A stretch of DNA of 64,000 nucleotides from Hericium rajendrae (Eukaryota; Basidiomycota; Agaricomycetes; Russulales; Hericiaceae), in contig CM065880.1 of the NCBI GenBank assembly GCA_033439255.1, positions 3,348,001 through 3,412,000 on the forward strand. Reading direction: 5' to 3'. A program made the position numbers and the translations under genes. Below are positions 1,876 through 33,613 of the stretch, in pieces (position 1 is the first letter of the stretch; each line of letters begins with the position of its first letter). Under the pieces are notes generated by a model. The model saw only the letters and a list, made by a program, of their open reading frames with translations, had not been told where the DNA came from and searched no databases.

Positions 1876-3205
1876 GTGTTGGAAGATTTGCCAAATATGC
1901 GAGAACGGGATTGCCATCGCGTCCAATCCAGATCTTATCGCGTCCAATGTATGATCCTGGGATGGATGCCTGTGTCAGTGATACAGAATATGTCGGCTCA
2001 TACAGCTGGGTTAGTGGCGACCGCCCAACTATTGTCGTTCCCGGTACGTAGTCATCAATTTGCTGAAGCACCGCTCAATTGCAATAGTGTAATTAGTATC
2101 TGACCTTCTCTCAGGCTCACCTCCAAGATGGATCGGCAGGGAGCTCCCATTCACACTTTGTCCTGACACCCCCAAGCGCCTCCACGCCACCCCCTTGTAT
2201 GCACTCCTTCCACTGATGAGGGCTGTTGATACCGTCGGTAAAGAGATTAACTGGCCTGCGATCGATTTCGTCACAGACAGTACTAATTTGAGAAAGTTAT
2301 TGATGTGGACCCGCGGTCATATGGGGAGGAAGCGCGGCTTTTGGATTGATCTGGAACTCGCCGGGGAGCGTACGGTTCTGTTGGACTCACCTAAGGCATA
2401 CATGCGCTACAGAGGCATTGACAGAAGCTACGGGTTATCCTTCGAAAACGGAACCACGACTCCTGCTCCAGGCTGCGAAAGCGGCATTGATCATTATCGC
2501 ATAGTTAAATATGTGAGTACTTTCACGTCATCGAGATGCTCCAGCATTTACTGTGTGAATCAGGACCTTTTCGGCCTCAACATAGTGGTTCGATTCGAAG
2601 TAGATGCATGCATTTTCCCCAACGACATAGAATTCGACAGCATGACAGATCCACTGGACATACTGGATGTTGATTCACACTCTGCGTCATCCGAGGATAT
2701 TCGTATCATTCGTGCAGGCTTTGAGGTCCCGCAGCAGTCCCTCATCGAACTCAAAGCTATTCGGAGCTCGGGGCACATTGACTTACAGGCAGTCTTCCCA
2801 CAGCTTTACTTCTCCCAGATACCATTGTTATATGTCGGAATTCACGATAACGGCACATTTTGCAAGGTGCAGATCAAGGATTGGCTGGACATGGAGGTGC
2901 AACGGAAGATCATCGAGGCGGACCTGCGAAACCTCGGTCAGGCGCTAAAGATGATCCAAGAGCTCGCAATCGCACACGGGACGAAGACGCATTTGAGCTT
3001 GGTATATCAAAATGGCGTATTGAGCGTATATGAAAGGGTTTCAAGGAAACATTGTTTGCCCACGGAGGTGCTGGCGAGATTTCACACAAGGCAAGCACTG
3101 CAGGTCTCTTTGCAATCCCACGCGACGTTGACTTGTTGCTCTTTTTTCGAAGACGTTAGCTCTACTTGCATATATCCTGACCCGGAAATTCCATCGAAGA
3201 GATAA
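1876..3205 (+). CDS. RAI1/DXO-like decapping-nuclease-fold protein, copy 1 (5' end undefined)
   Basis: First of five paralogues here. Readable exons are about 1876-2043, 2115-2512 and 2564-3205; the joins keep one frame. Motifs occur in RAI1/DXO order: GLSFE (G-x-x-x-E motif), then RFEVDAC (E-x-D), IELKA (E-x-K), and a Gln in YFSQIP. In that family these acidic residues and the Lys bind metal and the 5' end of RNA, so removal of incompletely capped RNA is a plausible but unproven role. The 51-nt intron at 2513-2563 is itself open in frame, so it could be retained. No ATG was found: the first exon runs back to an in-frame stop near 1870, and the Arg/Gly-rich start seen in copies 2 and 4 is missing or has diverged. 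The C-terminus runs about 45 residues past the usual end (LARF...). The gene faces the broken coiled-coil gene at 3366-4600. Many fungal members carry the database name geranylgeranyl pyrophosphate synthetase, which these motifs do not support. Confidence 0.6.
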
Positions 3206-3365
3206 AGGCCGACTTGTTGGAAAGCGATCTCGAATATATACCATTGGTCATCTCGTTTCCGCTTCGTCTCGACATTCAGTCGTTGCGTGTGGCTCAAATT
3301 TGCCATGACGGATGCTGGGTGAAACACGTGGCCGCGTGAAATGAGACGAGCTTGGAAAACGACCA

Positions 3366-4600
3366 TCAATCTTGAAGCAAACCGACTGGATGTTGCAGCC
3401 TACAAACTCGACCTTTGAGACTATCACGTTGATCTTCCAGTGCGTCGACCGCTCTTCCAGCATACAAAATTGGGCTTCCAGCCCGCCGACCCGGTCTATC
3501 AGCGCACAGACCCAACATTCCGGCCTGCTGAGCCGCTCCAATTGCACTGCATAGCAGCCAGGCATCTCTCTGCGGAGAGCGACATCTAGCCCAGGTATTC
3601 ATCAGGACACTGAACAGAAGAGTCGCAAGCACGGACGCATATACACCTCTTCCATCATTGGTAAGATTTTAGCGATCGCTTCCTCAAAGCGCGGTGCGAG
3701 TTTGAAGACGGTGGTTTCTGAGCTACCATGCTAGTGGTAACATACTCAACGTCAGCAAAAAAAAGGTAGCATAGAGACGAAACATACCCGAACTCATTGT
3801 CAAGGTCTACTGCCGAGGATTCCTCAACGTGCTTGCCCTAAACCACATATAGCCGGATTGGGATGATTAACAGCTTTCATATAGCCGCTCGCGACTGAAC
3901 ATGGCATATTCGTCCTTTTCCGACCATAAAACCCTGGTATAAAGATCAGGCTCCCATCATCCACCTCACAGGGAACGCGGGAGGTCGGCCACTCTCCCGC
4001 CGGACACGAAGCATGGTATCTGCCAGCAGCGCATGCCGCCAACAGCACGCAGAGGTCGCGAGCGAAGGACCTGCAAGACACGCTCTCAGAAAGGTGCGCA
4101 CGGCACCCCTTATGCACGAACCGTGCTATGCGGGCCAGACCGAGGAGCGTTGGGCAATTCGTAAAACCCTGCCACAAGACCCTCTCGACGACAATATCGG
4201 TCCACGGAGAGCCGTCGACCCTACGAATAGTGTCTCCCGTATAGCGTGATCCACTACCAGCCGCGAACACGGCCTCCTCCAACGTGCCGAATGACGTCTG
4301 CCACGGAGAGCCGCCGCGCTCAATGCGCAGGTAGACGCTGAAGACAGTCGCAGTCAGGCATCATCGTAAGAGACGATGATACATAGAAACTGACCGAGTC
4401 GCGCCCAAACAATGTAGCTTCTTCTTGCGGACTATGCCGACCATAACATACTGGTGACCCGAAAACCGGCCCTAGTACCACGTTACATCCACCATCCTCA
4501 GGTCCTGCACCCGGCGATAGACCGCCTAGCCGTGGCCGGTGGGGTAGTCTCCGTAGCTGACCTCAGACAGAAGACAGTCATTCTGTCTATTGAGCTGCGT
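3366..4600 (-). pseudogene. Broken copy of the coiled-coil family (relative of genes at 26345 and 28191)
   Basis: Minus-strand relic of the same gene as those at 26345-27610 and 28191-29531. The second-exon domain is readable at 3824-4340 (DTIRRVDGSPW, then FARDLCVLLAACAAGRY), preceded by the same intron ending in ctgtcttcag and by a recognisable end of exon 1 (about 4390-4520). Exon 1 carries an in-frame TAG where the intact copies read a Gln codon, and its 5' half is replaced by unrelated sequence. The C-terminal coiled coil (about 3367-3570) is split between two frames, so at least one frameshift is present. It ends about 160 bp from the end of RAI1/DXO-like copy 1, tail to tail. This is a host gene duplicate, not a mobile element. 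Confidence 0.7.
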
Positions 4601-4639
4601 CCTTGACTTTCATAAGAAAACTGCAGTGCGATGTAGATG

Positions 4640-4990
4640 GAAATCCTGCCAGAACTCGGTTCGATGAGAGTACAGGAGGATAAGGGATATACCGACGCCG
4701 TCAAGCTGCGGGAGCACTTGCGAACGACACAACGAAAGGAGCCTGCGCCGCGCTGCCGGCCCTTCCCACGGTCCGCCATCGGCAGAACGAGCTGTGATTC
4801 ATTCAAGGGTATACATGCTAATGTACACATACTAGACGCGAGGTGCCGCAACCCGAGAACGACCAACTAGTACACGCTAGAGAGCGAGAAACGAGAGAGT
4901 AGTTGCGCATGGCGAGAAACACGAACTACAGACCACAAACCGAAGAGGCGAAACTAAAAAAAAATGAATGAGGAGACAGAGAGGAGACAT
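4640..4990 (-). repeat. Duplicated 5' flank of the coiled-coil gene family
   Basis: Read on the minus strand, this stretch matches the sequence upstream of the gene at 28191 (about 27730-28080): a shared GGTCGTTCT...GGTTGCGGCACCTC block, then an AGTATGTGTACATTAGCATG block, then GGGAAGGGCCGGCAGCGCGG. A weaker third copy lies at 20650-20835. Duplication therefore carried several hundred bases of upstream sequence with the gene. It has no long open frame conserved between copies, so it is more likely promoter or leader than coding. Confidence 0.55.
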
Positions 4991-5154
4991 AACGTTAAGA
5001 CCATTAGCTACAATATAGCATGTCATAAGCATTCGTAAACCGGACACGCCGGGAAGTAGACAAGAATAAGGTGCATGGCACAACGTATTATATACAGTAC
5101 CCATCACAGCCCGCCCAAGAAAGCGGGCAGGTCACATAGAAACACGAAATAGAA

Positions 5155-7414
5155 TCACAGCAACACGTCCCGCCGCCCGCGCGCATCACCTCCCGCGCTG
5201 CGGCTGCGCACCCCCGCCTTCGCAGGGATCGCAATCGGCCGCGGCGTCGCCGCCGTCGACAGCACGAACCCACCGTCCGCACCTGGCGCCGAATGCCCGA
5301 CGGACAGCGCAGGCGACAGCCCGAGGCTCGCGCGGCCGCGGGCGACGCTCCACGCGCCCGCGCTCACGGGCGGCGTGCTCCCCGACCGGCGCGCGCGGAT
5401 ACTCTCGGGCGCGCCGACATCCAACCCGCGGCTACGGCTGCGCGACGAGCGCCCGTCGGGCGACATCGTCCAGCGCATCGACTCATGCAGGACGTCGAGC
5501 TCGGGCTCGCTGCGGAAGCCCTTGCGGCCGCGCGAGGTGTCGCGCTCCAGCGGGACGGCGAAAGGCGTGAAGCGCCTACTCGCCGCCGCGGGCATTACGT
5601 CCGTCGGCGTCGCAGGCGCGACGCTGGGGCTGGGCGAGCGCGAGGAGGAGCGCGCGCCGCTTTTCATGCAGTTGCGCCCGCGGTGGGAGGGCGAGGAGGT
5701 TGCGCTGACGAGGGAGACACTGAGAGCGGAAGCGGCGGGCGGAGAACGCGAGCGACTCGTGGGGGCAGGGGGCGACGAGGAGCGCTCGCGCAGCCGTTCG
5801 TCCTCCTCGTCTTCGTCCTGAGGGAAGTGATCCGCCGGACGCGAGCGGGAGCGCGAAGTCGACACGACAACGCTGCGACATGCGGACTGCGACCGGCTTT
5901 GCTCCTGAGCCTCCAAGACCATCAGGTCGAGCTGCTTGTCCGCGGGGCACGCATCAGTGCCCTCATGCGTCCAGCCGATGCTCCAGCCGACCTCGTCGAC
6001 GGCGACGATGTTCCATCGCTTTGCGACGGAGTGCTCGAGGCAGCCCTGTAGGACCAGTTCAGCGCCCCGGCCAAGACCCGGGGGCATGTCATAGACACCT
6101 AGAGCAAAATACGTAAAATCGAACGATAAGATCGACGTACGTGATGTACTCACCGTGCAGGATCTTCATTTGGAGTCTTGGTTCGAAGGAATCCACAAAC
6201 GGCAGCCGACCGGTTAAGAGTGCATAGAGCATGACGCCAAGGGCCCAGATGTCTTGTGCGGGGTGAGGCTGATAAGGATGCGATGCAGATGGCGGGCGAA
6301 GAAGCTCGGGAGACGCATAGGGAAGCGAGCCCGGCGGGAATTCGTATATGGCATGCGTCTTCATGCCTGAGGTGGCAGGCAATGGCGATGAATTGCGATG
6401 GCGCGGGCCTGAGTGATGGCGCAATAGCGACAGGTGGATGGGGAACCCCAGCTTGCCGTGACGCTTTGAATGCGCAATCTGCAGCGTGCGCTCGTGCTCG
6501 ACACCCACAGGTACATCGGACACGCCGATGCGGCGGGCCATGCCGAAATCTCCAATTTTGCATACACCCATGTCGTCCACGAGCACATTCTCTAATTTCA
6601 AATCCCCATGCACCAGCCCCATCTCCTCGTGCAGATATCGCACCCCGCGCACCACCTGTCTGAACATCATCCCTGCATCGTCGTGCGGCAGCGCGGGCCG
6701 GCCGTCGCGCTTAAGGATGTCATAAAGCGTGCCAGCAGGGCAGTAGAGCATGAAGAAAAAGTCGGCATAGGGGGTGTGGTGGGAGTGAAAGAGCGGGAGG
6801 ATGTGCTCGTGTGAGAGCGATTTCCAAATCGTGGTTTCATTGTCGAGGCGGTCGCGCGCGAGCGTCGGATTGGACGCTTTGGACATGTCAGCACGGCGCA
6901 CGATTTTGCAAGCGACGATACCTCCAGACGGCGAGATCGCTTTTCGAATGGTCGAAAAGCCGCCGTAGCCGATGATGGGTCCGAGCGTGTAGCCAGCTAC
7001 CTCTTCGCCCTCATCGTCTGGTAATGGAGCGTACGACGCCGCTGGGCTGAACGCTGAAAGAAACATGGCTGCGGGTGACATGGAGATGGAGACATCCCCC
7101 ATGGAGAAAGAGGTAGACATTGGAGATGCGGTGGGTAAAGGAGTGGTGGAAGGTGGTAAACCGTCGTATGGCGGCTCTGGTACTGAAGCCGCCAGAGCTG
7201 CATCCGAAACTTCGTCTAGCAGCAACTGCCGAGACAATTTTTGATTAACATCCTCTGCATCCGCATAGCTTGGAAAGAGGCCGTGATCCTCATTGTATTG
7301 GCCATCGTCGCTGCCAGATGTAAAGATCGCGGGTATCCTTGGGCGAGATGGCGGTAAGCCATCTACAGGAGGTAGACCAGACTGGTTGTTAAAACGTCCT
7401 TCCTCGTGGTGCAT
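5155..7414 (-). CDS. Serine/threonine protein kinase with Arg/Ser-rich tail
   Basis: Two exons, 7414-6154 and 6098-5155, joined by a 55-nt intron, give 734 residues in one frame. The kinase domain starts near residue 141: glycine loop GYGGFS (149-154), Lys170 in VACKIV, catalytic loop HGDLKLEN (269-276), DFG at 289-291, SPE at 368-370 in place of APE, and DIWALGVMLYALLTGRLPF. All core catalytic residues are present, so it should be active. Two oddities: HGD replaces the usual HRD, and about 77 residues separate DFG from SPE, well over the normal 25-30, giving a long activation-loop insert with several Ser/His. The first 140 residues are Pro/Ser-rich; after the C-lobe (ending near SVAKRWNI) follow about 260 residues rich in RSRS, SPS and acidic runs, probably disordered. 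The family is CAMK-like or NIM1/KIN-like by general appearance; no substrate can be named. The ATG at 7414 is the first in frame. Confidence 0.85.
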
Positions 7415-7461
7415 TCAATTTTTGTGCGTTAAGATCAGCCGAGAATGAGTGGTAAGATAGA

Positions 7462-7505
7462 CGTGGACAACGACGGCTACGGCGACGACAACGACGACGA
7501 CGATG
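7462..7505. repeat. Imperfect (ACG/GAC)n microsatellite
   Basis: Imperfect trinucleotide run of ACG/GAC units about 50-90 bp upstream of the kinase start, in its probable 5' leader. Confidence 0.7.
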
Positions 7506-7565
7506 AGGGAGAGGAGGTGGTGGAGCACAAGTCTGCGCACCTGGGGAATTGAAACGGTCAGCAGA

Positions 7566-7583
7566 ACCCGGAACGTTCCGGGT
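7566..7583. promoter_or_regulatory. 18-bp perfect palindrome, heat-shock-element-like
   Basis: ACCCGGAACGTTCCGGGT is a perfect 18-bp palindrome about 155 bp upstream of the kinase ATG. Its core GAAcgTTC is two inverted GAA units, the arrangement heat-shock factors bind. The palindrome is directly visible; regulatory use is inference. Confidence 0.4.
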
Positions 7584-9458
7584 GGCTGTGCACGTCTACT
7601 CCGCTGCTCCGCTGTTCCGTCTTTTTGATCCGTCCCGAGCACAAACCTTGACTTCCACGTCTTCAACTCAATTTCTACCAAGTCAAATTCCTGGAAAGAA
7701 AGAATACACGTTGTCTAGTGAGGTACAGCCATCTAGTCTGTTTCTGTTCACTGCTCTTATTTTGAATTGGTCCACAGGTTGGATTCCAGTCAGCTCACAG
7801 CTGGCCACCACACATTCCAACTGTGTAGGTTTCTGTGCGTGGTCTAGTGCACCTTAGTTGCACCGACGATATATCTCGGATTTAGCCCACGATTGGTGCA
7901 TTATTCAATGCAGGTTTTAGTGAAGGGTGGCAGCACAATCAATTCCTAAAGAATGGTCTCCAATGGTCGCCGAGCGCCCGACGGCCGATGATTGCATCGT
8001 TCACGCAAGGACAGTTCTTTTAGTTGGATCTTACGCTGGCTACAGGAAGTTTGAATATTCTTGGCAAAGCATGCCTTGCGCCAGCATCAGCTGTCATTCG
8101 TTCAAACACCGTCGTAAGGCTTTTCCCCTCATCAATGAGTGATGGCCTTGCTGCGTTTCACACATTAGGTATTTCTAACCTGCAGCATGCCTCAGAAGAA
8201 CGAGGAAACTTCTCTTAATCTCTCTCGATTACGACCGCTTCCCATGCGAGATATCCCATGTCACGTCACAACTTAACCCATCCCTCATCATCTTATTCAC
8301 CCTATCTCACCCTTGACACAGGAGCTATCCAAAAACGCCAGATCTGCGTGGGTGCACCGCAGCCAAGGAAGCTCCCACATATGTCACCCCAACCCTGTTT
8401 CCCCACACGTCAACGCCAGTTTCGCCAGAATTCGCCCGCTGCTGAATCACCTCGACCGCACGCAGCACGCCGCTGCTTCTCGTCCCCCCGAGATGCCTCC
8501 TGCATCCCTCCGTGCCCTTATCTCCCAACGGCGTCCGATCGTCGCTCTCCTCTCTTACACGCGCACCTCAACCCTCGCACCGCGTGACATAGCCTGGCGA
8601 CCAGAACACCCACCCCGCGATGTCCGCCGACACGTACAGTTTCGTCCACCCGTCTGATTGAACTACGCCCTGCCATGCGCACCCGACTGAATTGCGCGAC
8701 GGCGTTCATCTGGATCTCGAATCTCGACGCCTCTGCACCCGCCCCCGATGGTCGTGATATGCCTGGACTAGCACCGTCCCGCTTCCGGCGTATACGTTGC
8801 GGCGATCCCACCGCCATGTCCCCGATTCCAGCATGCCGGCGTCAGGCGTGCGAGGTGGCTTAAGTGCCAGAGTCCGCTGCATTCAATTGCGCGCGCCCCG
8901 TGCATAGGACGCGCGCGCGAACGTGACCCTCGACGGCCACACTCCTCGGAAACACCTGTACCCTCATCAGCGCACGTCCCCATTCCCACAACAAGCACAC
9001 ACACCGTTTCCGCTACCCGCTCCGCTCCTCCAGCCCGCGGCGAGCCCAGCTTGCGAACACGCCAGTGTGGGTAAAAGAGGATCTCGACCCTCCAACGAGC
9101 CCGACTCCAGAGCTTTATGCCCGCTATCGCCACCAGGAGAAATCTCGCAGCATGCGTGCGCGGCTGCACCGCGCCCATCACGACTCACGCATCTCGCCGG
9201 CGCGTGCTCGGAGAAAACGCAGTCGCCAGCACTGCAGAGCAAACGCATATCTAATTGTCATGTCCTATAATGTCCTCGGGCGTTGCTAAGGTGTGCTTTA
9301 CATGTCCCGAAGCGCACGCATGGAATACATACGCATTCTATCTAGCGGCTTAAGTGTATCGATCTATGTATCTACATGCGCATGTGGAATCGTGATGCAG
9401 GGTATAGCAATGTGCGTGCGCGTGTTCTGTGCGAACCATGCTGTCTATCATAGATCAG
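7584..9458. other. Intergenic, no supported gene
   Basis: About 1.9 kb between the kinase promoter side and the 3' end of the MFS gene. The several 60-140-codon open frames overlap one another on both strands, are Arg/Pro/His/Ser-rich and contain no recognisable motif. The part from 8300 to 9250 is GC-rich and cytosine-rich on the plus strand. Confidence 0.5.
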
Positions 9459-12293: not shown

Positions 12294-12414
12294 CGCGTCT
12301 GCAGCTATGATCACGTCGCACAAGGGGAAAGAGACGAAAAGCACAAGCCAGCGGCACCAGCTTGCCGACCATTAAAATGCACGATCGAAAATATATGGGG
12401 AGAGGGAGATCTGC

Positions 12415-12469
12415 ATTATCAGATAACTCAGCCGGCCGATGATGCGATTCGAACCCGTTATCTGATAAT
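12415..12469. repeat. 13-bp perfect inverted repeat with 29-nt spacer
   Basis: ATTATCAGATAAC (12415-12427) and its exact reverse complement GTTATCTGATAAT (12457-12469) flank a 29-nt spacer. The arms contain GATA/TATC cores. It may be a hairpin, a paired GATA-factor site or the remains of a small inverted-repeat element. It lies about 120 bp upstream of the MFS start, so a role in that promoter is possible. Confidence 0.6.
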
Positions 12470-21063: not shown

Positions 21064-22385
21064 CTAATCTGCGTTAAATCTGGCCAATACAACCTTCGAC
21101 AAACAGCTATTCCTCGCGACCCTTTCATATACGGTCAATACGCCACTCTGGCATACCAAGCTCAGATGCGTCTCCGTCCCGTGTGCAATTGCAAGCTCTT
21201 GGATCGTCTGTAGCATCTGACCCAGCTTTCGCAGCTGTGCCTCGGCGTTCCTGCGTTGTTCCTCCATCTCCAGTATATTTGTTTTCCGCACCTTGCTAAA
21301 TGTCCCATTCTCGTGAGATCCAACATAGAGCCACGGAGTTTGGGAAAGGTATAGCTGCGGGAAGACTTCCGACGGGCTGATATGGTTCGAATACGTGGTA
21401 GATTTAAGTTCGACGAGAGATTGCTGCGGGACCTCAGAGCCAGCGCGGATAATACGGATTCCCCAGGACAAGTCACTTTCAGAAGCGACGTTCATGGTGG
21501 CCAAAGAATCCACCAAATTATTTGGCCCCGTCCCCCCTTCATCGTCGGGAGGCAGACATGCGTCTACTTCAAATCGAACCATCATTTTGAGGCCAAAGAA
21601 GTCCTAGCATGTGCAGTGAGTGCTGATTCGGGAGCGTCTCGATGACATGTGGATACTCACATATTTTACGATGCGAGCATGGCTAATGCTGAGTTCACAA
21701 CCCGGGGCAGGAGCTGTGGTCCCGTCCTCGAAGGAGAACCCGTAGCCCGTGCCGATAGCACGCTTGTGGGCCCCAACTGTGTTCAGCAGGACTGTACGTT
21801 CACCAGCAAGCTCCATATCAATCCGGAAGTCGTTGCTCCGGCCTGTTGCACCGCGAATCCATCTCAATAAATTTCTCAAATTCTTTCTGTCTGTGATGAA
21901 GTCGATCGCGGGCCAGTCAACTTGTTTGCCAACGGTATCGACAGCCTTCATGATCAGGGAAAGTGCAGATGATGGCATGTTATGTCTTCCATCTGGAAGA
22001 AGTGTAAATGGTGGCGCTCTGTTTGTCCATCTCGGAGGCGAGCCTTTTGTAGCCTGAGCATTACTTCCAAGCCTGACCAATGACAGCGTACCTGGGATAA
22101 TCATAGTTCTACCACCGCGGTCGATCAGGTTGTATGAGCCAACGTATTCTGTGTTCTCGATGCTGGCGCTTGTCCCGGGGTCATGCATTGGATGCGACAG
22201 AACCTGGATCGGTTGCGATAGTAACCCCTTGTCGAGAGCGCTACGATGAGGAAGCTATCATGATAGATTTGCCATGTTTTGATTGGCAGGAAATACCTTC
22301 TACTGCTCCCCTTGCCGCGGCCGCGTGCACGCCCCAGCCCGTTGCCGCGGGCAGAGGGATTGAAACGCGCGGATGAGGAAGCCAT
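21064..22385 (-). CDS. RAI1/DXO-like decapping-nuclease-fold protein, copy 2 (best preserved)
   Basis: Four exons (22385-22297, 22254-22092, 22044-21661, 21603-21064) sum to 1176 nt, 391 residues in one frame. The first intron is only 42 nt. The N-terminus is Arg/Gly-rich (GRARGRGKG), suggesting RNA contact. A shared segment NTEYVGSYNLIDRGGRTMI follows, then PPRWTNRAPPFTL, DWPAIDFITDRKNLRNLLRW and FRIDMELAGERTVLL. Predicted active-site motifs in RAI1/DXO order: GFSFE (186-190), RFEVDAC (E224, D226), VELKS (E277, K279) and LSQTP (Q300). All expected catalytic positions are kept, so this copy is the best candidate for a working enzyme. The family removes aberrant 5' caps or triphosphates from RNA. 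The insert between the E-x-D and E-x-K motifs is longer than in animal DXO. Homology is inferred from motif order and spacing only. Confidence 0.7.
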
Positions 22386-22443: not shown

Positions 22444-23780
22444 TTATGAGGTCCGAAACTTCCTTTGGCACAAGTCTCGTTACCAACCCCCGGAAATGTC
22501 ATTGCGGAAAAAGCTTATGGAATGCACGCACTTCAGGAAGGTAAAAAAAACCTGCTTCGAGAAGCCCACGAGGCTGATTACGGTTTTGAGGGTTTCATTT
22601 TGGGACGCTGGATTCGCAGCCTACTGCGGATGAACTGCGCCGTTGTGACAGGAAATAAGATAAGGTATTCTGGAAGCAACAAGGCAACGCCCACGTTCGC
22701 AAGACGGCCCTTGTACATGTTCCACAACCGAATTAGGAAGTCATAATGTGGAAGTGAGTGCTTGGATGAACGGGTATCGCGTACCCCGTTCGCGTTGATT
22801 CAGAGTACTTATCTCGAGGCAGCGACCAGTGCTCGTACACCTAGAGTAGACAAGACCGATAAGAAGGGAGTAATTAACTTGCCAACTCAAGAAAGAACGA
22901 CGTGATCCCAGAGCCGGCATACACGATCTCCATGTAGGGCGAGGACTCGTGCCTCTCCATGCGGAAGGACGTTGCCGCAATTTCTGTCCCTGTCAGCATT
23001 CTCAGCGGCACATAGTCAGGGATAACACATAAACTGGCTCATATGTTTCATGGTATGGCTATCGTTGGTGACGCGTCGTCCTTCACCATGCTGGCTTCCT
23101 GAATGTCAGGATCACATCGTACAGGAACACATCCGACGGTTCAAAGTCTTGTCGTTGAGATACCTCTCTTGTTATCTATCTTCAGTACGACCACACACTC
23201 CCTCTTGCAGTAGAGTGACTTCGGTCCGATAGTCGCTTGAGTCCTGCGTGGTCAACTCATGAGTAAATCGTACTGAACCCGGCGAAATAATTTGTGGTCG
23301 GTCCTTGGTCGGTCCTTGATGACGTCAAGCCCCTGACCGAGAAGATGTAGAGTGAATTTCAAAAGCCAGCACCGAAAAACGTGCATCCGGATGAGACTTC
23401 GCGGTCGACGTCTGTGTGTGGACTACGACCGTCGTAGTCGAGGGGAAGCTGCCGCTGAGCTGATGCGTTGTGACCTGTTGTAAGTCATGACCGACCATCT
23501 CCGCTGCACTTGTTAGCTCCTGCCCTCAGGCCCTCGACTCGTTTCGAGTCTTTCGATCTGGACTGCTGGTAAATCAGCCCTGAGAAGACTAGTTTTATCA
23601 CTACAAACTTGACGCACCGATTCCGCCGTCTTGACTTTCCACGAGGCCCTTGAGTGCTGCGATTTCGCACACCTTCAGGTGATATACACAAGATGCGCAT
23701 CTGACAAGCCTCAGGATTCAAGATCGAAATGTACGTATCCCGATCAGTCGTATCTGAAAAGGAAGGAAAGCCCTTGTCGC
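22444..23780. other. Gap with gene-like fragments on the minus strand
   Basis: 1.3 kb between RAI1/DXO-like copies 2 and 3. On the minus strand, three stretches look coding though no family is recognised: about 23010-22875 (PLRMLTGTEIAATSFRMERH, then YMEIVYAGSGITSFFLEL), about 22855-22790 (VYEHWSLPRDKYSES) after a possible intron, and about 22755-22625 (LWNMYKGRLANVGVALLLPE, ending near IRSRLRIQR). They could be the 3' exons of a decayed or unrecognised gene. The part at 22540-22650 resembles 31520-31630 upstream of copy 4. Nothing convincing was seen from 23050 to 23780. Confidence 0.35.
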
Positions 23781-25011
23781 TCAATCCACGTCGAACCTTG
23801 CCAGTTCCTCCGCAGGCAAGCAGTTTTCCCTCGTGACCCGCTCATACAGGCTCAGCGCACCACCCTGACACACCAAGCTTAGCCGTGTCTTCGTTCCATG
23901 CACCACCACCAGCTCCTGGATCGTCTTCAGCATCTGACCCAACTTCCGCAGGCACGGCTCGAAGAAATCACGCTGTGCCTCCATTTCCACTGTCTTGTGT
24001 ATCTGCAGTTCGCTGAATGTGCCGTTCTCGTGATATCCGATGTAGAACCATGGGGTCTGGGACAGGTACAGCTGTGGGAAGACTTCCGACCACTTGACAG
24101 GTTTGCGCGACCCTGTGGTCTTTAGTTCGACGAGAGACTGCTGTGGGACTTCGGAGCCAGCGTAGATAATATGGAGGCCCTGCGACCAGGAAGATTCGGA
24201 AGCGACATTGAGCGTGGCCAGCGAATGTGTCACGCTGTCCAGCTCTGCGTCCTTTTCATCGGACGGGAGGCATGCGTCCACCTCAAATCGGACCACCATT
24301 TTGAGGCCGAAAAAGTCCTAGTATGATGGTTAGCATTGATATTGGAGCATCTCAACGATATATGAGTGCTCACGTATTTTATGATGCGATGGTGGCCAGT
24401 GCTACGTTCACAGCCGGGAGCGGGGGATATGGTTTCGTGTTCGAAAGATTCTCCGTAACTCTTCCAGTCGGTATTCCCCCTTATACGGTTCTCGAATATG
24501 TTGAACAAGATGCTGTGCTCACCAGCGAGCTGTATATCAATCCTGAAGTCCCTATCCTTTGAGCCGTTTTGCAGCCATCTCATCAACTTCCTCAAATTGT
24601 TTCTGTCCGTGACGAAATCAACCGCAGGCCAATCGATCTCTTTGCCGACGATATCGACGACGGAATGTGATAGTCCGCTGGGCGTATCTCTGCATCGGAA
24701 GGAATTGCATATGGCAACGCTCGATTCGTCCATATTGGTAGTGAACCTGCGCTAAAGTCAGTTACTTGTGCCTAGGTCAACGCCAGTCTCTGCGCACCTG
24801 GGACGATGATGGTTCGACCATCGTTTTCGACCCAATTATATGAGCCGATGTACTCTGCATTTTCGATGCTGCCAGTCGTCTCGACCTCATGGATCGGAGG
24901 GGATAGGACCTGAATTGGCGATGAAGACAATCCCTCGTTGAGCCCCGAGATTCCACGCTGACGCCTGTGGCCGCGGGCAGAAGGGTTGTGCTGATAAGAC
25001 GCGTAAGCCAT
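23781..25011 (-). pseudogene. RAI1/DXO-like protein, copy 3, frame broken
   Basis: Exons by homology to copy 2: 25011-24798, 24746-24374 and 24317-23781. Motifs survive: GESFE, RFEVDAC, VELKT and LSQTP. In the second exon, however, the reading starting at SLPIWTNRALP runs out of frame before VDIVGKEIDWPAVDF: the codons for the short LLPLLKA-like segment are missing and the frame changes, so about 20 bases appear deleted. Unless an unusual splice bridges this, the product stops early. All predicted catalytic residues lie downstream of the break. Identity to copies 2 and 4 is high elsewhere, so decay looks recent. The gene is divergently oriented to the coiled-coil family gene at 26345. Confidence 0.6.
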
Positions 25012-25039
25012 GGCGAGCAGACCTATATTCAGTCTTGGG

Positions 25040-25077
25040 TTTATAGGCCTGCCAGCGTCTGTCGAGCGGAACACGTG
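25040..25077 (-). promoter_or_regulatory. TATA box and CACGTG upstream of copy 3
   Basis: On the minus strand TATAAA (25040-25045) lies about 30 bp and CACGTG (25072-25077) about 63 bp before the ATG at 25011, matching the layout upstream of copy 2. Surrounding bases (ACACGTGTT, then a GTCTCGT match) are also similar between the two. Confidence 0.4.
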
Positions 25078-26344
25078 TTGGAAGTCCTTGAGTCTTATCT
25101 GGGATGAGTCTCGTCATTGAGTCCTCAAAATTGTCACCGTGAGATGAAGATCTGCAATCCACATACCTTCAAGAGGCAAGAATCTTAGGCAGCACATGAG
25201 GCGGATGATGTTTTGAGGACTTCATCTCCGCCTATGCCCAAAGCAAGCTGAGCCCTCTGGTTTATGTGTGATCATGGCCTCCAATGAACCGTCATTGGCG
25301 CCTGCCGGCGCATTCATCTTTACTTGTCTGTGTTGCGAGGGAAGTTCGGCGGTCTTGCAGATGCCGACGCCCCTCACGTTTGTCTCCGACCCATTCGCTG
25401 GAGCTCCCCGGTAAGCAGGGATTCGAGCCTTCGGCGCCGGTGCTGATCAGCTTAGAGGATAACTTTCTCTCCACAAGCCATCAGCGATGGAAGAGGGATG
25501 GAACCTGACATCCCAAAGCTGTTACCAGCCCAGAATCCACTGTCTGGAAAGAGTATCGATGGATGACGTGCGAGACTCGTCCATACAAGGTGAAGCGCAG
25601 GGAAGCCAAGTTCGTAAAGATCACGGTTGTGTCTCACCAGCACTCATACAGGATGACGATAGCGGGGACCTTCACTTCGGTCTAGTTGAACAAATAGATG
25701 TACTTAATGTCGGCGGATGAAGTCTGCGCTTCGATCTTGATAACGACGAGACCTGAATTGGAGGGCAGGAGATGTATACTGAATAAGTTTTTTATGTTCG
25801 CGGATTTCTGGGTCCTGTACTGCGTTGATTGGACAAGATTTTCAGTCGAGACTAAGTTAGGACCTCAGGCTTGAATACGTACCTTATTTTGATTCTCAGA
25901 AAAGCCATCGAGGAGCAGATTGAGATAAATTTGGAATATGAAGCTTTGGAAAGACAAGGTACGTATAAATGATATCTGCCTTGCCAGCGAGTGTCGACTT
26001 TTGTGTTCGGTGTCGCGGTCAAAGCACAGATCGACGCACTGCGTGACCATCGGCGAGTCACAGTCTTCCTCGGCCCGGGCCGTTTCCACGCATGTACGGG
26101 GGCGGCCGTGACCCCCGTTGTGCTCCTCCTCTCGAGCTCTGTCTAAGTCTTGATCCATGCGAAAGATGGTTAGCGGTCGGTATCAGTAGAATGTCTCACT
26201 GTCAGCGGACAATGCGGGAAGCTCCTTATTCGAAAGTACTAATAAGTACTCCCGCAGGCTCCTAACGGCGATCTCTTATATACTCTCATTGCATCCAGCT
26301 TTTTTTTCTCGAAGTCAGCACACACTTCCAACCACAATTCCTAA
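25078..26344. other. Intergenic between divergent genes
   Basis: 1.27 kb shared upstream region of copy 3 (minus) and the coiled-coil gene at 26345 (plus). Short open frames near 25292-25720 and 25852-26158 have no recognisable motif. A tRNA-like T-loop near 25418 was examined and rejected. Confidence 0.45.
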
Positions 26345-27610
26345 ATGCTTTTCACAGACACCGCAAATTTGCGCATTCCTGCCATGGTTACGGCAGCCTT
26401 CAAGGAATTGGACCTCAATCCCTCGTTGCCACACCACCCCCTCCCAGATGAATCAGAGCTCCCTAGAGAATCAGAGCGGTTCAGCGTCGAGGACTGGGTT
26501 GAATCCATTATGGAGCGGTGCATGGATCGCACCGGCCGCAGCGAGGCGGCCTATCGCCGCATGCACGACCTGCGGGTGGCGGATGTAACGCCGTACCAGG
26601 GCCGGTTTACGGGTCACCACTATGCCATTGTCGAGATAGTCCCCACGGAGAAGCTATATCATTTCGAAGCACCCCGGTAAGTTTCCATGTCTCATCTCCG
26701 ACGATGATGCCTGACTACGACTGTCTTCAGCATCTACCTGCGTATCGAGCGCGGCGGCCCCCCGCAGATCCCGTTCGGCACGCTCTTGGCGGCCCTGTGG
26801 GCGGCTGCTGGTGGATCGTGCTTCACGGGAGTAGACACTATCCGCAGGGTCGATGGCCATCCGTGTATCGACAGCACCGTCGGGACAGTCTGGTGGCGGG
26901 GCTTCACGAGTCGCCCCACGCTCCTCGATCTTGTCCGCGTAGCGAGCTTCCTGCGTAAGGAGTGCCGCACGGACCGCTCTGAAAGTGCGACTTGTGGCTC
27001 CTTTGTTCGCGATCTCTGCGTGCTGCTGTGCGCATGTGGCTCTGATAATTACTTCACGCCGTTCACCGCGGGAGGGCGGCCAGACTTCACTGTTTTCCGT
27101 AAGGTTGATGATGGGGCGTCTGAGCTTTGCGCCAGGTTTTCAGAGTATGAAAAGGACGAGAATGCTACGGTCAGTCGCGAGCAGAGCAGCTTCGCAGAGG
27201 CGGCTAATCACCCTTGTTGGACTACAGATGGTTTGGGAAAAGCACGTCGAGGAACCCCCGGAAGTAGTAGACCTTGAGGTATGTTTCGTCTCTATGTTAT
27301 TTTTTTTGGCTGACATTCGGTACATGACCATTAGCATAGTAGCTCAGAAGTCACGAAATTCGAACCTGCACCGGTAGATCGGTTTGGCGCGCTGGTAGAT
27401 CGGATAGGTGCGCTAATAGATCGGTTTGGCGCGCTAGTAGGTCGAATTGGCGGACTGGTAGGTCGGGTTGGCGCGCTCGAAGCCCGGGTTGGCGCGCTGG
27501 AAGCTCGGGTTGGCATACTGGAAGCCTACATGCCGGATGATCAACGCGATAGTCTGAATGGTCCGTGCGCTGGCATAGAACATCCAGTCGGTTTACATCA
27601 AAATCCCTAG
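26345..27610 (+). CDS. Unknown basidiomycete-type protein with C-terminal heptad coiled coil (gene A)
   Basis: Four exons (26345-26676, 26731-27169, 27228-27278, 27335-27610) sum to 1098 nt, 365 residues in one frame. I do not recognise a named family. An N-terminal region (FSVEDWVESIMERCMDRTG) leads into VADVTPYQGRFTGHHYAIVE and IYLRIERGG, a pattern seen in uncharacterised mushroom proteins. A cysteine-containing helix-like domain follows (TLLDLVRVASFLRKECR, FVRDLCVLLCACG). The last exon encodes about nine heptads of the type VDRFGAL / VGRIGGL / VEARVGAL, hydrophobic at positions a and d, predicting a parallel coiled coil and therefore an oligomer or partner binding. No signal peptide or membrane segment is seen. 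Paralogues lie at 28191-29531 (intact) and 3366-4600 (broken). The exon order is identical in the intact pair apart from one extra exon in the second. Confidence 0.7.
27377..27524 (+). repeat. 21-bp minisatellite encoding the coiled coil
   Basis: About seven tandem units of 21 bp, consensus near GTAGATCGGTTTGGCGCGCTG then GAAGCCCGGGTTGGCGCGCTG. Each unit is exactly seven codons, so unit gain or loss lengthens or shortens the coiled coil by one heptad without changing frame. The first units read VDRFGAL, the last read EARVGAL, showing divergence along the array. Confidence 0.75.
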
Positions 27611-28190
27611 TCGCACCTGTCCTTTGTTTCTATCTTCATACTATTTATGTGATAATTCCGTCCAGTCAGCATCTCTTACGGTTGTAATGAATCTAGGCAT
27701 GCTACCTCATCGGAATCACATTGTCATATTGCGCTTATTCTGTTTCTCTTGTCTTCTCCTTCACGTCTACCACCAACGAATCGCAACCAACTTCAGTGAA
27801 CTTATGGTCGTTCTTGGGTTGCGGCACCTCAGGTATAGTATGTGTACATTAGCATGTATACCTTGAATGAATTACAGCTCGTTCTGCCGTCACCGCCTGC
27901 AGTGGCCAGTCGAAACGCAAGTCTCGAGGACTCGGCTGACCGTGGGAAGGGCCGGCAGCGCGGCGCAAGCTCCTTTCCTTGTGTCGTTGAGTCGCAAGTG
28001 CTCCCGCAGCTCCTAACGGCGGCGGTATGTCTCTCTCCCTCCTCTTTCACACTCACCACACTGATTTTCTGCAGAATCACCGTCCACATCCCTCCACGAT
28101 CTCAATATCAAGCTCACTGAAACAGCGTACCCGTGCAGTCCAGCAGTGGACGCAGCATCCTATTAAAAAGATTTGGAGCATGGGTCGACC
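27611..28190 (+). repeat. Upstream flank of gene B, member of a three-copy repeat
   Basis: 580 bp between genes A and B. Bases 27680-28080 match the flank of the broken copy (4640-4990, minus) and more weakly 20650-20835. It begins with GAATCTAGGCATGCTAC and includes GGGAAGGGCCGGCAGCGCGG. Probably promoter and leader of gene B duplicated with the gene; no conserved open frame. Confidence 0.5.
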
Positions 28191-29531
28191 ATGCCACAGA
28201 ATCCCCTCGAAAATGCACCAGAGCTTCTCTATACGTCCGACCAATACTGCATCGTGAACTGGGTCGAGGCGATCGTTATGCACTGTACGGACCCCCTTGG
28301 CGACGGCGAGGCGGAATATCGCCGGGTGCAGGAGCTGAGGGTGGTGGATGCAACGCTGTACCAGGGCCGGTTTTCGTGTCACCAGTATATTATCGTCGAA
28401 GTAGTCTGCAACGAGCAGCTACATGATTTCGATGCGCCCCGGTAATTTTCTATGTATCATCATCTCCGACGACGATGCCTGACTGCGACTGTCTTCAGCG
28501 TCTACTTGCGCATTGAGCGCGGCAGCTCTCCGCAGATGTCATTTGGCACGCTGGTGGAGGCCATATGTCAGTGGGCAGGCGCTGATGGATCATGCGTCGC
28601 GGGAGGCGACACTATCCGCAGGGTTGACAGCCTTCCGTGGTTCGACACCGTCGTCGGGAGAGTCTGGTGGCAGGGACAGGGATACACGAAGTGCCCGACG
28701 CTCCTCGATCTTGCTCGCGTAGCGCATTTCTTGCATAAGAGGTGCCACGCGCACTTTCCTGAGCGCCCGTGTTGCCAGTCTCTCGCTCGTGATCTCTGCG
28801 TGCTGCTGGGCGCGTGCTCTGCTGGCAGATACCAGGCTTTGTGCCCGGCGGGAGGGTGGCTGGCCTCTCGCGTTTCCGGCGAGGCTGACGATGGGGAGCA
28901 TGAGCTTTACACCAGGTTCTTACAGTCCGAAAAGGACGAAAAGGCTATGGTCCGTCGCAAAGGCCGCCTGGGGCTAACCACCCCTGTTGGGCTACAGATG
29001 GTTTGGGAAAAGCATGGCGAGGAATTTTCGGAAGTAGGCCTTGACAATGAAGTTCGGGTACGTTTCGCATCTATGCTACTTCTTTTTCCTGACGTTGAGT
29101 ACACTACTACTAGCATGGTAGCTCAGAAATTATCCCCAGATTCAATTTCCTATCGCGTTTGGAGATAGTGGTCGCTAAAATCAAAATGTTTAACGATGAG
29201 GTATGTATGCGTCCATGCTTGCGACTCTTCTATGCAGTGTCCTGAGGAATACCTTGGCTAGATATCGCTCTCCGCAGAGAGAAGAAGTCTGGCTGCTGTG
29301 CATTGCATTGACGGTCGGCTTGACAGGCTGGGAGGTCAGGGCGGCACGTCGGTAGACCTGGTTGGCACGCTGGAACCCCAGGTTGGCGCACGGGAAGCCC
29401 GAGTTGACGCGCTGGAAGCCCGGGTTGGCATGCTGGAAGAACAGATTGGCGCGCTGGAAGATCGACTTGATAGTCTAAAAGGTCGGATTGGTGAACTGGA
29501 AAATCCAGTCGGTTTACTACAAGATTGCTAG
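28191..29531 (+). CDS. Unknown protein with C-terminal heptad coiled coil (gene B, paralogue of gene A)
   Basis: Five exons (28191-28441, 28499-28949, 28998-29057, 29114-29200, 29262-29531) sum to 1119 nt, 372 residues in one frame. It is collinear with gene A: VDATLYQGRFSCHQYIIVE, VYLRIERGSSPQM, DTIRRVDSLPW, PTLLDLARVAHFLHKRC and LARDLCVLLGACSAGRYQ. The coiled coil is split by one more intron, and its heptads are less regular (LEPQVGAREARVDALEARVG, LEDRLDSLKGRIGELE). The Arg/Cys positions of the central domain are conserved with gene A, so that domain is probably under constraint. Start: the first in-frame ATG after an upstream non-ATG stretch is 28191. The gene faces RAI1/DXO-like copy 4 tail to tail. 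Function unknown. Confidence 0.7.
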
Positions 29532-30067
29532 TCATGTCTGTACTTTGTTTCTCTTCTCAGAATATGCGATGACTACGTTCGGTCAGCGTCTCTCACAGGA
29601 ATTTTGGGCCAGTGGAAATGACTCGTGGATGTGGAGGTGAAGCGGACAAGTGATAGTCGTGGGTGCATCCGGGATCGCCTCTCGACAAGTTGACTTATCA
29701 GGAACGGTTGCAGGTTATGAGATATACTTGTAAGCACAACTTGTGTCTTCGAAAGGTGTCAACAAATCAAATACACATAGGACCGCGAGGGAACCTGCAG
29801 TATTTACTTTGTATTGAATCTTGTGAAGATCTCCTTTGACAGAAATTATTCACGCTGTCAACTTGAAGCCCGTCCTGCCTTGCAACCAGGCCCGCAAGCT
29901 CTGTGAACGGTAAGGCCATTCCGTGGCACCTTCACGTTGTATCTGACCTGATGCAATGCAAGCCTCACGACTCGAGATCGAAAAGTATTCATACAGCAAA
30001 TTCTACGTTCAAAGTTCCTATCTCAGCCAAGCATGCGTATCTAACATGACAAGTATGTCCGCATCGC
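29532..30067. other. Convergent intergenic region
   Basis: 536 bp between the 3' ends of gene B and RAI1/DXO-like copy 4. No gene seen. AT-rich runs near 29700-29850 would suit polyadenylation signals of both transcripts. Confidence 0.5.
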
Positions 30068-31388
30068 TTAATCCGCGTCGAATCTCCTCATTACGTCCTT
30101 TGGCAAGCAGGTCTCGTCCGAAACCCATTCATGCAAGCTCAATTCGCCCTCTTGACATACCAAACTTAGGCGTTTCTTTGTCCCGTGTGCGATGGCGATC
30201 TCTTGTATCATCCGCAGTGTCTGACCCAGCTTTTGCAGGTTTGTCTCGAGGTTCTTGCGCCGCTCTTCCATCTCAGATATGTTGTTTATCTTCACTTCGT
30301 TGAATGCGCCCTTCGAATGGAATCCCACGTAGAACCACGGCGTTTGGGACAGGTATAACTGCGGGAAGATCTCCGACCATTGGATCCGGTTCCCGGAACG
30401 GGAGGCTAATTCGATGATTGACTGCTGTGGGACCTCGGACCCGGCGCGGATGATGCGAAGGTCCCGGGTTGAAGCAGCTTCAGATGTGACGTTAAGTGCG
30501 GACAATGATGCTGTCAAGCTGTCGAGCTCCGCATCGCCTTCACTGGGGGGGAGGCATGCGTCCACCTCGAAGCGAACCACCATCTTGAGGCCGAAGAAGT
30601 CCTGCCACGACAGTGAATATGAGGGTGTCGCAGTGATCTCAGGGTACTCACGTATTTGATGATTCGATGGTGGCCTGTGCTGCGTTCGCAGCCAGGAGCG
30701 GGAGATGTTGTTTCGCGCTCGAAGGTGAAGCCAAAGCTTCCGTCGGCTTTGTCTTTGGTGCAATTCTCGAATCTGTTGAACAGGACGGTGCGCTTCCCAG
30801 CGAGCTCCATATCGATTCTGAAGTCCCTGCCCTTCGCGCCGTTGTGAATCCATCTCATCAACTTCCTCAAATTGTTCCTGTCCGTAATGAAGTCGATCGC
30901 GGGCCAGTCGATCTCTTTGCCAATGACATCGACGGCCTTCAGGAGTGGGAGGAGTACAGAGGATGGAACGCGAAAGCCATTTTGGTCTTTGAAACGCGTG
31001 CCTTCGTCAGGCCTGAGTGTGAATGGTGTCTTTCTCCCCATCCATCTGGGAGGTGAGCCTGGGTCACGGTCAGATGCGCATGCTCTCCTAACGACTGCAT
31101 CTGCGTATCTGGGACCAGAATGGTAGGATGGGCGGCATCAATCCAATTATATGAGCCAATATATTGTGCATTCTCGATGATGGCAGTGATTGCAGGTTCA
31201 TGAACTGGAAGGGACAGGATCTGGATCGGAGATTGTAGTAATCCCGAGTTGAAAGACCAGTAAGGAGGCAGAGAATTGTCCCTCGATGGCTTTGACTTCT
31301 TGGTTTCGTTCCCCCTACCGCGTCCACGTCCGCGCTGGTGCGCAAAGCCGTGGGTGGAGCGGCTGGGATGGCTGGATGAGGAAGCCAT
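30068..31388 (-). CDS. RAI1/DXO-like protein, copy 4, with altered active site and splice donor
   Basis: Exons by homology are 31388-31109, 31058-30652 and 30601-30068 (1221 nt, 406 residues in frame). The N-terminus carries an RG repeat (GRGRGRG), then YIGSYNWIDAAHPTILVP and PPRWMGRKTPFTLRP. GFTFE and RFEVDAC are kept, but the E-x-K motif reads IELAS, so the expected lysine is Ala. It also keeps SQTPWFYVG. The first intron has a G-to-A change at its donor (CCAG|ATACGC; other copies have GTACG, GTGCG or GTGAG). If it is not spliced, the frame is lost and the product ends after about 156 residues. So this copy may be a catalytically impaired protein, use a rare AT-AG splice, or be newly inactivated. 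The gene faces gene B tail to tail. Confidence 0.55.
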
Positions 31389-32173
31389 GATGTGCAGATC
31401 CACGTTCAAGCCCTCGAGGCTTATGTAGAGTCTTTGCTAATCGAAGCACGCTTTGCAAGCGCCATAACCCTCCATTCGGCTGGAAGCATCCGAAATGCAT
31501 GTACCTTTCAGGGGTAACGGAACCTGCTTCAGGTAGCCAACGAGGCAGAACGGCGACGTAGAAGACTTCGTGTCTAAATCTGGACCTGCAGCCTGCTGCG
31601 AATTCGCAGCGCTTGTGTCATGGTCCAGGAATACGTGCCTTCTTCTCCAGGTGAGTTTACTGCGCATCGAGAGCTTCGTCAACTCACTTTTATCTGGGCC
31701 CCCAATCCAATTCAACCGGAAGTGAACTTGAGAGATGGTGCTGCTAATCGCGCACATGACTAAGAGTAACTCGAATACACGGCGCAAGTTGTCAGATAAG
31801 CTCTCGCCGAACCGAATTACGACACTGTGGCCTGCTGCGGGGAGACCATGCTTTGCAGGGATGGTTCCGGGGTGCAAATTTGTCGGGCATACAAGCCCAA
31901 TGACTGGCATATGTGCACCACAATGCGGGCTTCTTGAAATCTGGGAGGATCGGTGATTGACATCTTCTGTAGCCAGCCTGACTTCGACATAGTTCTGGAA
32001 GAAATCACGAAAGTACAACCACGAGGAGCTGTGTCCCTTTTTATGAACAGTGTGCAGCAATTCCCCACAAGCAGGGTATCGACTGTCAGCGACGCTATTG
32101 TGACTGACTTCTCTGTAAAATAGTGTTATATACATCTCCTCGGACTAGGAAAGACTCACAACATACCTGATCA
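31389..32173 (-). other. Upstream region with a 232-codon minus-strand open frame
   Basis: Between copies 4 and 5. A minus-strand ATG-initiated frame spans 32135-31437 and ends 49 bp before copy 4. It has some protein-like segments (SSWLYFRDFFQNYVEVRLAT) but no recognised family. The part at 31520-31630 matches 22540-22650 upstream of copy 2, where a different frame reads IRSRLRIQ against IRSRLQVQ here. It is more likely a decayed duplicated flank than a working gene. Confidence 0.3.
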
Positions 32174-33613
32174 TCATTGGGCGTTGAAGCGTCGACACGC
32201 ATCGTCCGGAAGGCAGCTCTGGTGTGATGCGCGCTCGCATACACCCAACTTCCCACCTCGGCACACCAAACTCAGTGACTTGTCCTTGTGAGCAATCGCG
32301 ATCTCTTGAATATTCTTCAGCACCATCCCAAGTTTCTCAAAATCCCCATTCATCTGTTTGTCGCCAGCAGAAATGCTGTCGCTCTTATGCGTAGTCGAGA
32401 TCCTGTGGATCCGAGAGAACTGCCCTTACGTGTGTATGCCGATGTGGAGGTGCGATGCCTGGGATAAATAGATGGGAGGGATGATGATCGACGTGTCTAG
32501 CTGCATGCTGATGGTTGAACGGGTCATCAGCTCCACGACGGACTCTTGCGGTACTTCTGATCCTCCGCGAACAACATGCAGGCCATGGGCAGGCAGGTTG
32601 AGAGGTTGCTTCTTGTTTTCAGCGGGAGAGACAGCCTCGATGCTGAGACCGTCGAGGGTATTTGCTAGAGCGTCGGATGAAGGTGATGATGGCACGTCCG
32701 CCCGTTCTGTTGCATGAGGGAGACAGGCGTCAACCTTGTGACGAACGATCATCTTCAATCCGTGGAAATCCTTTAAAGAGAACGGCCTTCAATGCATGAA
32801 TGCTCGATCGAGAGTGCCAACTCACATATTTGATGATACGAAGGTGAACCAGACTTTCCGCACATCCAGGCGGCGCCCTGGTTACCATACGTTCAAAAGC
32901 TATCCCGTATGTCTTGCCATTGCCAGCGACGTCCCGATCGCCGGGCTCCCACCTGTTCAAGAGAACAGTGCGTTCCTTAACCAGCTCGAAGTCGATCCTG
33001 AAGTCCCTCACGTTATCACCTCGTTCGATCCATTTATACAGCTTTCTCAAGTTGGTCCGATCAGAGACGAAGTCAATGGCGGGCCAATTAACGTCCTTTC
33101 CGATTGTGTCGACGGCCGTTAGCAGGGGCAGTAGAGGGAATGATGGAAGCTTGAGCGTGTTATGGTCTACAATGCGGACGCCCTCATCCGGACTGAGCTG
33201 GAAAGGTACGTCTCGCTCAACCCATTGGGGAGGCGACCCTGTGGGAGAATATCTCTATCTCCGCCTCTCGATTATATGGCCAGCTACTCACCTGGTACGA
33301 TGATCGTGGGCTCTTCCGAATCCTCCCAATCATACGAACCGATGTACTCTACGTTCTTGACACCTCCCTTCACCAACGTAGTTCCAACTTGAGGATGTGG
33401 TAAGGTCTCGATCGGCGAAGGCGAGAGCAAGCCCTCGCCCATGTCACGATCGCGAGGGAGGTTATGTGCGGCCAGCCGCTCTTCGCGGGATGCAAAGAAG
33501 ATGAGTTCCTTCCCGCTGTGCTGGATCCAGTTGCGACCACGTCCTCGGTTTCGCTTTCCAGTCTTTCCGTCACGCTTAGAGCTTGTGTTCGCCACAGATG
33601 AAGGACCGGACAT
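32174..33613 (-). pseudogene. RAI1/DXO-like protein, copy 5, degenerate
   Basis: Most diverged copy. Exons by homology: 33613-33292, 33238-about 32827 and about 32771 onward. The N-terminus is basic (GKTGKRNRGRGRNW), followed by YIGSYDWEDSEEPTIIVPG and PPQWVERDVPFQL. GIAFE is kept, but the E-x-D motif reads RHKVDAC (Glu to Lys) and the E-x-K motif reads VELMT (Lys to Met). An in-frame stop follows IGIHT near 32428; the same frame continues with clear homology (GQFSRIHR, NIQEIAIAHKDKSLSLVCRG) to a natural end near 32174. So two predicted catalytic positions are lost and the C-terminal third is cut off. It could still make a truncated pseudo-enzyme. Confidence 0.6.

Follow-up and report, generated by a model that had tools for sequence, protein, structure and literature searches.

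Nine related loci are arranged in tandem in the genome of Hericium rajendrae, and we think it reasonably probable (about 60%) that they form a birth-and-death array of a diverged family derived from the DXO/Rai1 PD-(D/E)XK fold, in which one copy, c2, is possibly active and most of the others are pseudoenzymes or dying genes. The copies are clustered paralogs whose motifs align, and several of them have decayed.

A local tandem expansion

The nine places span 49 kb of contig 3 (C3:3332743-3381613), as located by tblastn and with ends taken from exon models. Five of them (c1-c5) lie within the 64,000-nt stretch of DNA that we analysed, hereafter the window, and four (n1-n4) lie outside it. The preliminary description had proposed five paralogs within 32 kb; c1, c2, c3, c4 and c5 were all located, and their number and paralogy are borne out, but the array itself is larger than had been supposed. 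The modelled proteins of c1, c2, c4 and c5 share 44-60% pairwise identity, and blastn comparison of c1, c2, c3 and c4 gave E-values of 4e-52 to 2e-127 for all six pairs, so the similarity of the copies is not due to chance. Genome searches gave no relatives of the array elsewhere among the matches listed, and the family has expanded locally, in tandem, within this genome. A search of viral contigs for relatives returned 56 pattern matches, of which 0 were confirmed.

A single exon plan had also been suggested for the five copies. Two intron positions are indeed common, one after V-P-G and the other after K-Y, but c2 has an extra 5′ intron, c5 has an extra 3′ intron, and the first-intron donor of c4 is broken, reading AT and not GT. 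The DXO-like gene c1 occupies positions 1905..3205 on the plus strand (exons 1905-2043, 2115-2512 and 2564-3205), and its first exon has no clear start. On the minus strand, c2 (21064..22385; exons 22385-22297, 22240-22092, 22043-21661 and 21603-21064) is an intact DXO-like gene encoding 386 aa, and c3 (23781..25011) is a likely pseudogene, its second coding exon being frameshifted by a 28-nt gap relative to the other copies. Also on this strand are c4 (30068..31388; exons 31388-31109, 31058-30652 and 30601-30068) and c5 (32174..33613; exons 33613-33292, 33238-32826, 32770-32430 and 32375-32174). The spliced frames of c2, c5, n1, n2 and n3 are open, with GC donors in n2 and n3; n4 is truncated and frameshifted.

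Comparison with RAI1/DXO proteins

The preliminary description assigned the family to RAI1/DXO and proposed a profile search against PF08652. Membership in that profile was not recovered: none of the six copies scanned (c1, c2, c4, c5, n1 and n3, with c3, n2 and n4 left out) matched RAI1, even at E 10, in a scan whose positive control, the RAI1 of the same genome, scored 392.5 bits (E 2e-117). Searches of the PDB by profile and by phmmer with the array family likewise had no RAI1/DXO protein among their matches. The part of the assignment that stands is a remote homology, indicated by profile-profile alignment and motif-block placement and, weakly, by Foldseek.

In hhalign, the array family aligned to RAI1 plus DXO with a score of 26.3 (P 0.016) and with the motifs in register, although the HH-suite probability of this match was only 2.9%. 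None of 200 column shuffles reached 26.3, and four unrelated families scored 11.1-17.6. Alignment to the genome's own RAI1 alone scored 28.9 (P 0.006; HH-suite probability 6.4%), and alignment to DXO alone scored 19.9 and was out of register. Global hhalign produced a meaningless path.

We then placed the family's motif blocks freely along 334 residues of DXO (chain 10yz_A, which we take to be mouse DXO). Blocks I, II, III, IV and V-VI each scored highest exactly at the homologous motif, V-VI being tied with one other place. On the genome's own RAI1, blocks II, III and V-VI fell on the homologous motif and the last block fell near the C-terminus as expected, while blocks I and IV missed their motif; the first-hairpin block failed in both proteins. 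The order-preserving block sum was equalled by 1/5000 sequence shuffles for DXO and by 1/5000 for RAI1, and eight unrelated control proteins, mostly shorter than the targets, scored 14-34 compared with 60 and 70. Permuted block orders scored as high in 157/2000 cases for DXO and 178/2000 for RAI1, and block order by itself is not decisive.

The structure models were poor, with a mean pLDDT of 46.9 for model 1 and a still lower 38.3 for model 2, which omitted the N-terminal exon. With model 1, Foldseek ranked Rai1 chains 1, 2 and 4 of 350,542, none of them significantly (E 0.25-0.58, TM-scores 0.09-0.13, rmsd near 10). With model 2, Ashbya Rai1 ranked 11 at E 3.

Compared with RAI1/DXO proteins (PF08652; mouse DXO, yeast and S. 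pombe Rai1), motifs I, II, III, IV and V-VI are recognisable in the array as T-x-R-x-x-L-x-K-L, G-x-x-x-E, E-V-D, E-L-K (in c1-c3) and a Gln with P-x-h-x-h-G after it. The differences are considerable: the family lies below Pfam detection, the motif VI Arg is replaced by His, the motif V Lys is gone except in the broken c3, and most copies lack the Glu of III or the Lys of IV. In the array proteins, a long linker of low complexity also separates III from IV; several of them carry an Arg/Gly-rich N-terminus, and their genes stand in tandem. The canonical RAI1 of H. rajendrae, of which one copy was found in the genome, lies apart from the array at C16:147020-148657. Its likeness to the array is remote and at the level of motifs, and it has six exons with, by inspection, no intron position in common with the array.

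Predicted catalytic residues across the copies

According to passages of two published sources, the Glu of motif II, the Glu and Asp of III and the Glu of IV in DXO make up a two-metal site, the Lys of IV probably activates water, the Arg of I and Gln of V hold the 5′ phosphates, and the Lys of V and Arg of VI hold the RNA body (PMC4513879, PMC13213243).

The five copies in the window had been described as sharing one motif series. This is true of G-x-x-x-E (5/5), and nearly so of E-V-D (4/5, with K-V-D in c5) and of the later Gln, aligned with DXO Gln280 (4/5, with Pro in c5), but E-L-K occurs only in c1-c3, c4 having E-L-A and c5 E-L-M. Across the whole array, the motif I Arg is present in seven of the eight copies having the region (c2, c3, c4, c5, n1, n2 and n3); c1 has Ser, and n4 is without the region. 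The Gly and Glu of motif II, G-Phi-x-Phi-E, are present in 8/8 copies having the region, although c3, with GESFE, departs from the first Phi. Motif III reads E-h-D in 5/8 (c1, c2, c3, c4 and n3) and K-h-D in c5, n1 and n2, with the Glu absent from the K-[I/V]-D of n1/n2. Motif IV is E-h-K in 3/9 (c1, c2 and c3), the Lys position being Ala in c4, Met in c5 and Thr in n1-n4.

The Lys of motif V, K-x4-Phi-h-Q, is replaced in all seven tabulated copies and occurs only in the frameshifted c3 (K-WSEV-F-P-Q), n4 having been left out of this count because it is frameshifted. The motif V Gln is present in 5/7 tabulated copies (Pro in c5, Arg in n1) and is also kept in c3 and n4. Another candidate for this Gln, the one in L-S-Q, was rejected, as block placement matches Gln280 to a Gln five residues earlier. 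In place of the G-h-R (or K) of motif VI, all nine copies have G-x-H.

The only intact copy with Arg (I), Glu (II), Glu/Asp (III), Glu/Lys (IV) and Gln (V) is c2. If the family descends from the DXO/Rai1 PD-(D/E)XK fold, c2 would keep the two-metal site, the probably water-activating Lys, and the Arg and Gln for 5′ phosphates; because these are kept, it may remain able to hydrolyse a 5′-modified RNA or nucleotide at the first phosphodiester. Since the Lys of V and Arg of VI are absent, its substrates may be short or different, or RNA may be held in another way. Copies whose motifs III and IV read K-[V/I]-D and E-L-[T/M/A] may bind without cutting; if maintained by selection, as in n1/n2, they would be pseudoenzymes, and otherwise dying genes.

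Alternative readings and implications

Somewhat unlikely, in our estimation, is that the whole family is non-catalytic, with E-L-T as the ancestral motif IV, the Lys of c1-c3 secondary, and RNA 5′ ends or a partner (e.g., Rat1/Xrn exonucleases) bound through a DXO-like fold and an Arg/Gly-rich tail. In the tree, the E-L-T copies n1-n4 do fall opposite the E-L-K clade, but this tree is unrooted, so the Lys may equally be ancestral. Loss of the motif VI Arg throughout the array fits such a family, as do the RGG/GRG/RGR triplets (27, overlapping, in residues 1-134 of n2 and seven in the first 120 of n1) and the apparent constraint on n1/n2 (dN 0.12, dS 0.66) despite their K-[I/V]-D and E-L-T. However, c2 holds all metal ligands together with the Arg, Lys and Gln, a combination that would be unlikely without selection. 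We consider it unlikely that the array is mostly decaying, its duplicates heading for loss and having no common function. The c3 frameshift, the c4 donor loss, the unclear start of c1 and the state of n4 agree with decay, as do segmental duplications at 85-88% close to the array, but five spliced frames remain open, and dN/dS is 0.17-0.29 in the eight of 21 pairs that were hand-checked and had computable dS, values that are rough as dS is mostly >1.

Very unlikely is a different PD-(D/E)XK nuclease family, DNA-acting or of unknown substrate, whose E-x-D and E-x-K resemble DXO by convergence. No DXO match was significant by sequence or fold, and the other weak Foldseek matches of model 1 included SSO0001, PvuII, MspI and NhoI, and among these weak matches are what we take to be PD-(D/E)XK nucleases; the likeness to DXO nevertheless reaches motif I, G-x-x-x-E and the V-VI block, beyond the generic PD-(D/E)XK core. 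That these are geranylgeranyl pyrophosphate synthases is scarcely credible. Mushroom homologs presumably carry, as reported, the name geranylgeranyl pyrophosphate synthetase, and in n1, n2 and n3 the linker contains DDLAD/DDLTD, which is similar to the DDxxD motif, but c1, c2, c4 and c5 lack DDxxD, as do the exons of c3 and the piece of n4. We rejected this identity, as no prenyl-synthase Pfam match was found, at E up to 10, in 6/6 scanned copies.

Conceivable, if distinctly unlikely, is a fast-evolving tandem family in which one active DXO-like enzyme stands amid pseudo-decapping proteins with Arg/Gly tails; these would sense RNA 5′ ends or shield them, and an arms race with fungal RNA viruses or mobile elements would maintain the diversity of the family. 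Among the matches listed in open-access literature, with most subscription papers outside its scope, no diverged DXO/Rai1 branch or expanded fungal RAI1 family is described. If the descent we propose is true, a diverged branch of the DXO/Rai1 fold exists in fungi and is missed by the Pfam profile, and the reportedly misleading annotation name in mushrooms would be corrected. Natural residue losses would then separate binding from cutting, and the array would offer a series of natural mutants of a two-metal RNA 5′-end enzyme.

Extent of the array

As the preliminary description proposed, the window holds five paralogous genes. These are c1 (1905-3205, + strand), which is without a clear first exon; c2 (22385-21064, -), which encodes a clean protein of 386 residues in four exons; c3 (25011-23781, -), whose frame is broken by a gap of 28 nt in the second coding exon; c4 (31388-30068, -), whose intron-1 donor is AT where GT is expected; and c5 (33613-32174, -), with a frame open across four exons. 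We searched the genome (46.8 Mb, 19 contigs) by tblastn with c2 and an outside copy, n3. This gave at least 22 and at least 25 exon matches, respectively, which are lower bounds because the six-frame search scores the best candidates only. All matches lie at 3332743-3381613 of C3, the contig carrying the window, which spans C3:3348001-3412000. Genes here are rich in introns, as expected of a fungus.

The genome-wide search thus places the family at nine or more sites, c1-c5 and n1-n4. The copy n1 lies at C3:3334335-3332743 (-); n2 (+, ending at C3:3339161) and n3 (C3:3339936-3341347, +) have GC for GT at the first donor; and n4, near 3347.2-3347.5 kb of C3, is truncated and frameshifted. Around the array, -7028 to -4454 and -825 to 1569 (window coordinates) form a segmental duplication of 85-88% identity, and n1 and n2 are inverted copies of 80.6% identity.

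Other duplicated genes occur here. A small family sharing the stretch YLRIERG is interleaved with the copies (3824-4360, -; 26708-27277, +; 28446-29168, +) and has a more distant match on contig C2; neither of the two members scanned matched Pfam above cut-off. Another local cluster, at 38071-44768 and 61798-62796, consists of four reading frames that are related to one another and resemble 2OG-Fe(II) oxygenases; the one scanned matched PF13640 (E 3.6e-8). The gene at 36175-37765 (-), which we take to be anthranilate phosphoribosyltransferase-like, recurs outside the window (about 5692-7282 of locus L027; DNA 87% identical), with the n4 fragment directly behind that copy.

Comparison with RAI1 and DXO

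None of the six copies scanned matched Pfam RAI1 (PF08652), which scored 392.5 bits with the canonical RAI1 of this genome (contig C16), and PDB sequence searches with the family as query did not find DXO. In hhalign, a seven-copy profile scored 26.3 against RAI1+DXO (P 0.016; HH-suite probability only 2.9%), pairing G-F-S-F-E with G-Y-A-F-E and E-V-D with E-V-D. No column shuffle among 200 reached this score, the highest being 24.2; reversing the profile lowered it to 14.6, and the range for four unrelated families was 11.1-17.6. The score was 28.9 (P 0.006) against the genome's own RAI1 alone and 19.9, out of register, against DXO alone; single-clade profiles gave 21.7 (n) and 25.1 (c).

We then took seven blocks from the family alignment, each at its best ungapped position in the target. 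Five of them (I, II, III, IV and V-VI) hit precisely their counterpart motif in DXO (334 residues), with V-VI scoring equally at a second place; in the genome's own RAI1 this held for II, III and V-VI, with I and IV off. The last block fell on RAI1 residues 374-405, presumably the region of the closing hairpin; it was misplaced in DXO, where the compared stretch stops short of that region. The first-hairpin block was misplaced in both. For each target, 1 of 5000 shuffles matched the order-preserving block sum; block-order permutation, a weak control, gave sums as high in 157/2000 (DXO) and 178/2000 (RAI1) cases. Eight unrelated proteins, mostly shorter, summed to 14-34, compared with 60 and 70 for the targets.

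Taken together, we interpret these comparisons as a sign of remote homology to DXO/RAI1. The proposed kinship stands in this form, and its PF08652 membership does not; the family should not be filed under that entry.

Structure models of c2, predicted from an unspliced reading of contiguous window sequence, suggest a DXO-like fold. For model 1 (mean pLDDT 46.9, pTM 0.31), Foldseek ranked Ashbya Rai1 first and chains O of the yeast Rat1 complex, which are Rai1 (8jch_O is so named), second and fourth, none significantly (E 0.25, 0.38 and 0.58; TM-scores 0.09-0.13). Model 2 (38.3, 0.27) had Ashbya Rai1 at rank 11 (E 3, not significant).

Active-site motifs and divergence of the copies

PMC4513879 lists six motifs common to Rai1 enzymes: Arg (I), G-Phi-x-Phi-E (II), E-h-D (III), E-h-K (IV), K-x4-Phi-h-Q (V) and G-h-R (VI), with Lys (V) and Arg (VI) contacting the RNA body. 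PMC13213243 assigns metal binding to Glu and Asp of motifs II-IV, phosphate holding to Arg (I) and Gln (V), and possibly the activation of water to Lys (IV).

Of the eight copies having the region of motif I, c1 has Ser and the other seven Arg. At motif III, five of eight read E-V-D, the exceptions c5, n1 and n2 having K-h-D. Lys of motif IV is confined to c1-c3 (3/9), with Ala in c4, Met in c5 and Thr in n1-n4; Gln (V) is kept by 7/9 and gives way to Pro in c5 and to Arg in n1. The earlier claim of E-V-D, E-L-K and a later Gln in all five window copies thus fails for c4 and c5. Lys (V) is replaced in all seven copies tabulated, c3 with its frameshift being the one copy that has it, and Arg (VI) is His in all nine. 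By these counts, only c2 among the intact copies combines a full set of metal ligands with Arg (I), Lys (IV) and Gln (V).

An eight-row tree separated (c4,(c3,(c1,c2))) from (n3,(c5,(n1,n2))) with support 100/99; being unrooted, it does not order E-L-K and E-L-T. The nine-row last-exon tree agreed in its unrooted shape, at lower support (89/89) and with a long branch to c5. With dN 0.12 and dS 0.66 between them, the motif-poor copies n1 and n2 are under constraint. Their N-termini carry RGG/GRG/RGR triplets, 27 overlapping in 134 residues in n2 and seven in 120 in n1. The linker of n1, n2 and n3 (loci L026/L027, outside the window) contains DDLAD or DDLTD, resembling the DDxxD motif of prenyl synthases; speculatively, this stretch might be the source of the reported misnaming of mushroom homologues as geranylgeranyl pyrophosphate synthetase.

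The array is best read as a diverged DXO-like family, amplified locally, with one intact gene retaining a nearly complete active site and several copies that are pseudoenzymes or dying. If the family is enzymatic, the likeliest activity would be two-metal hydrolysis at the 5' ends of RNA or nucleotides; a role in quality control or defence is conceivable.
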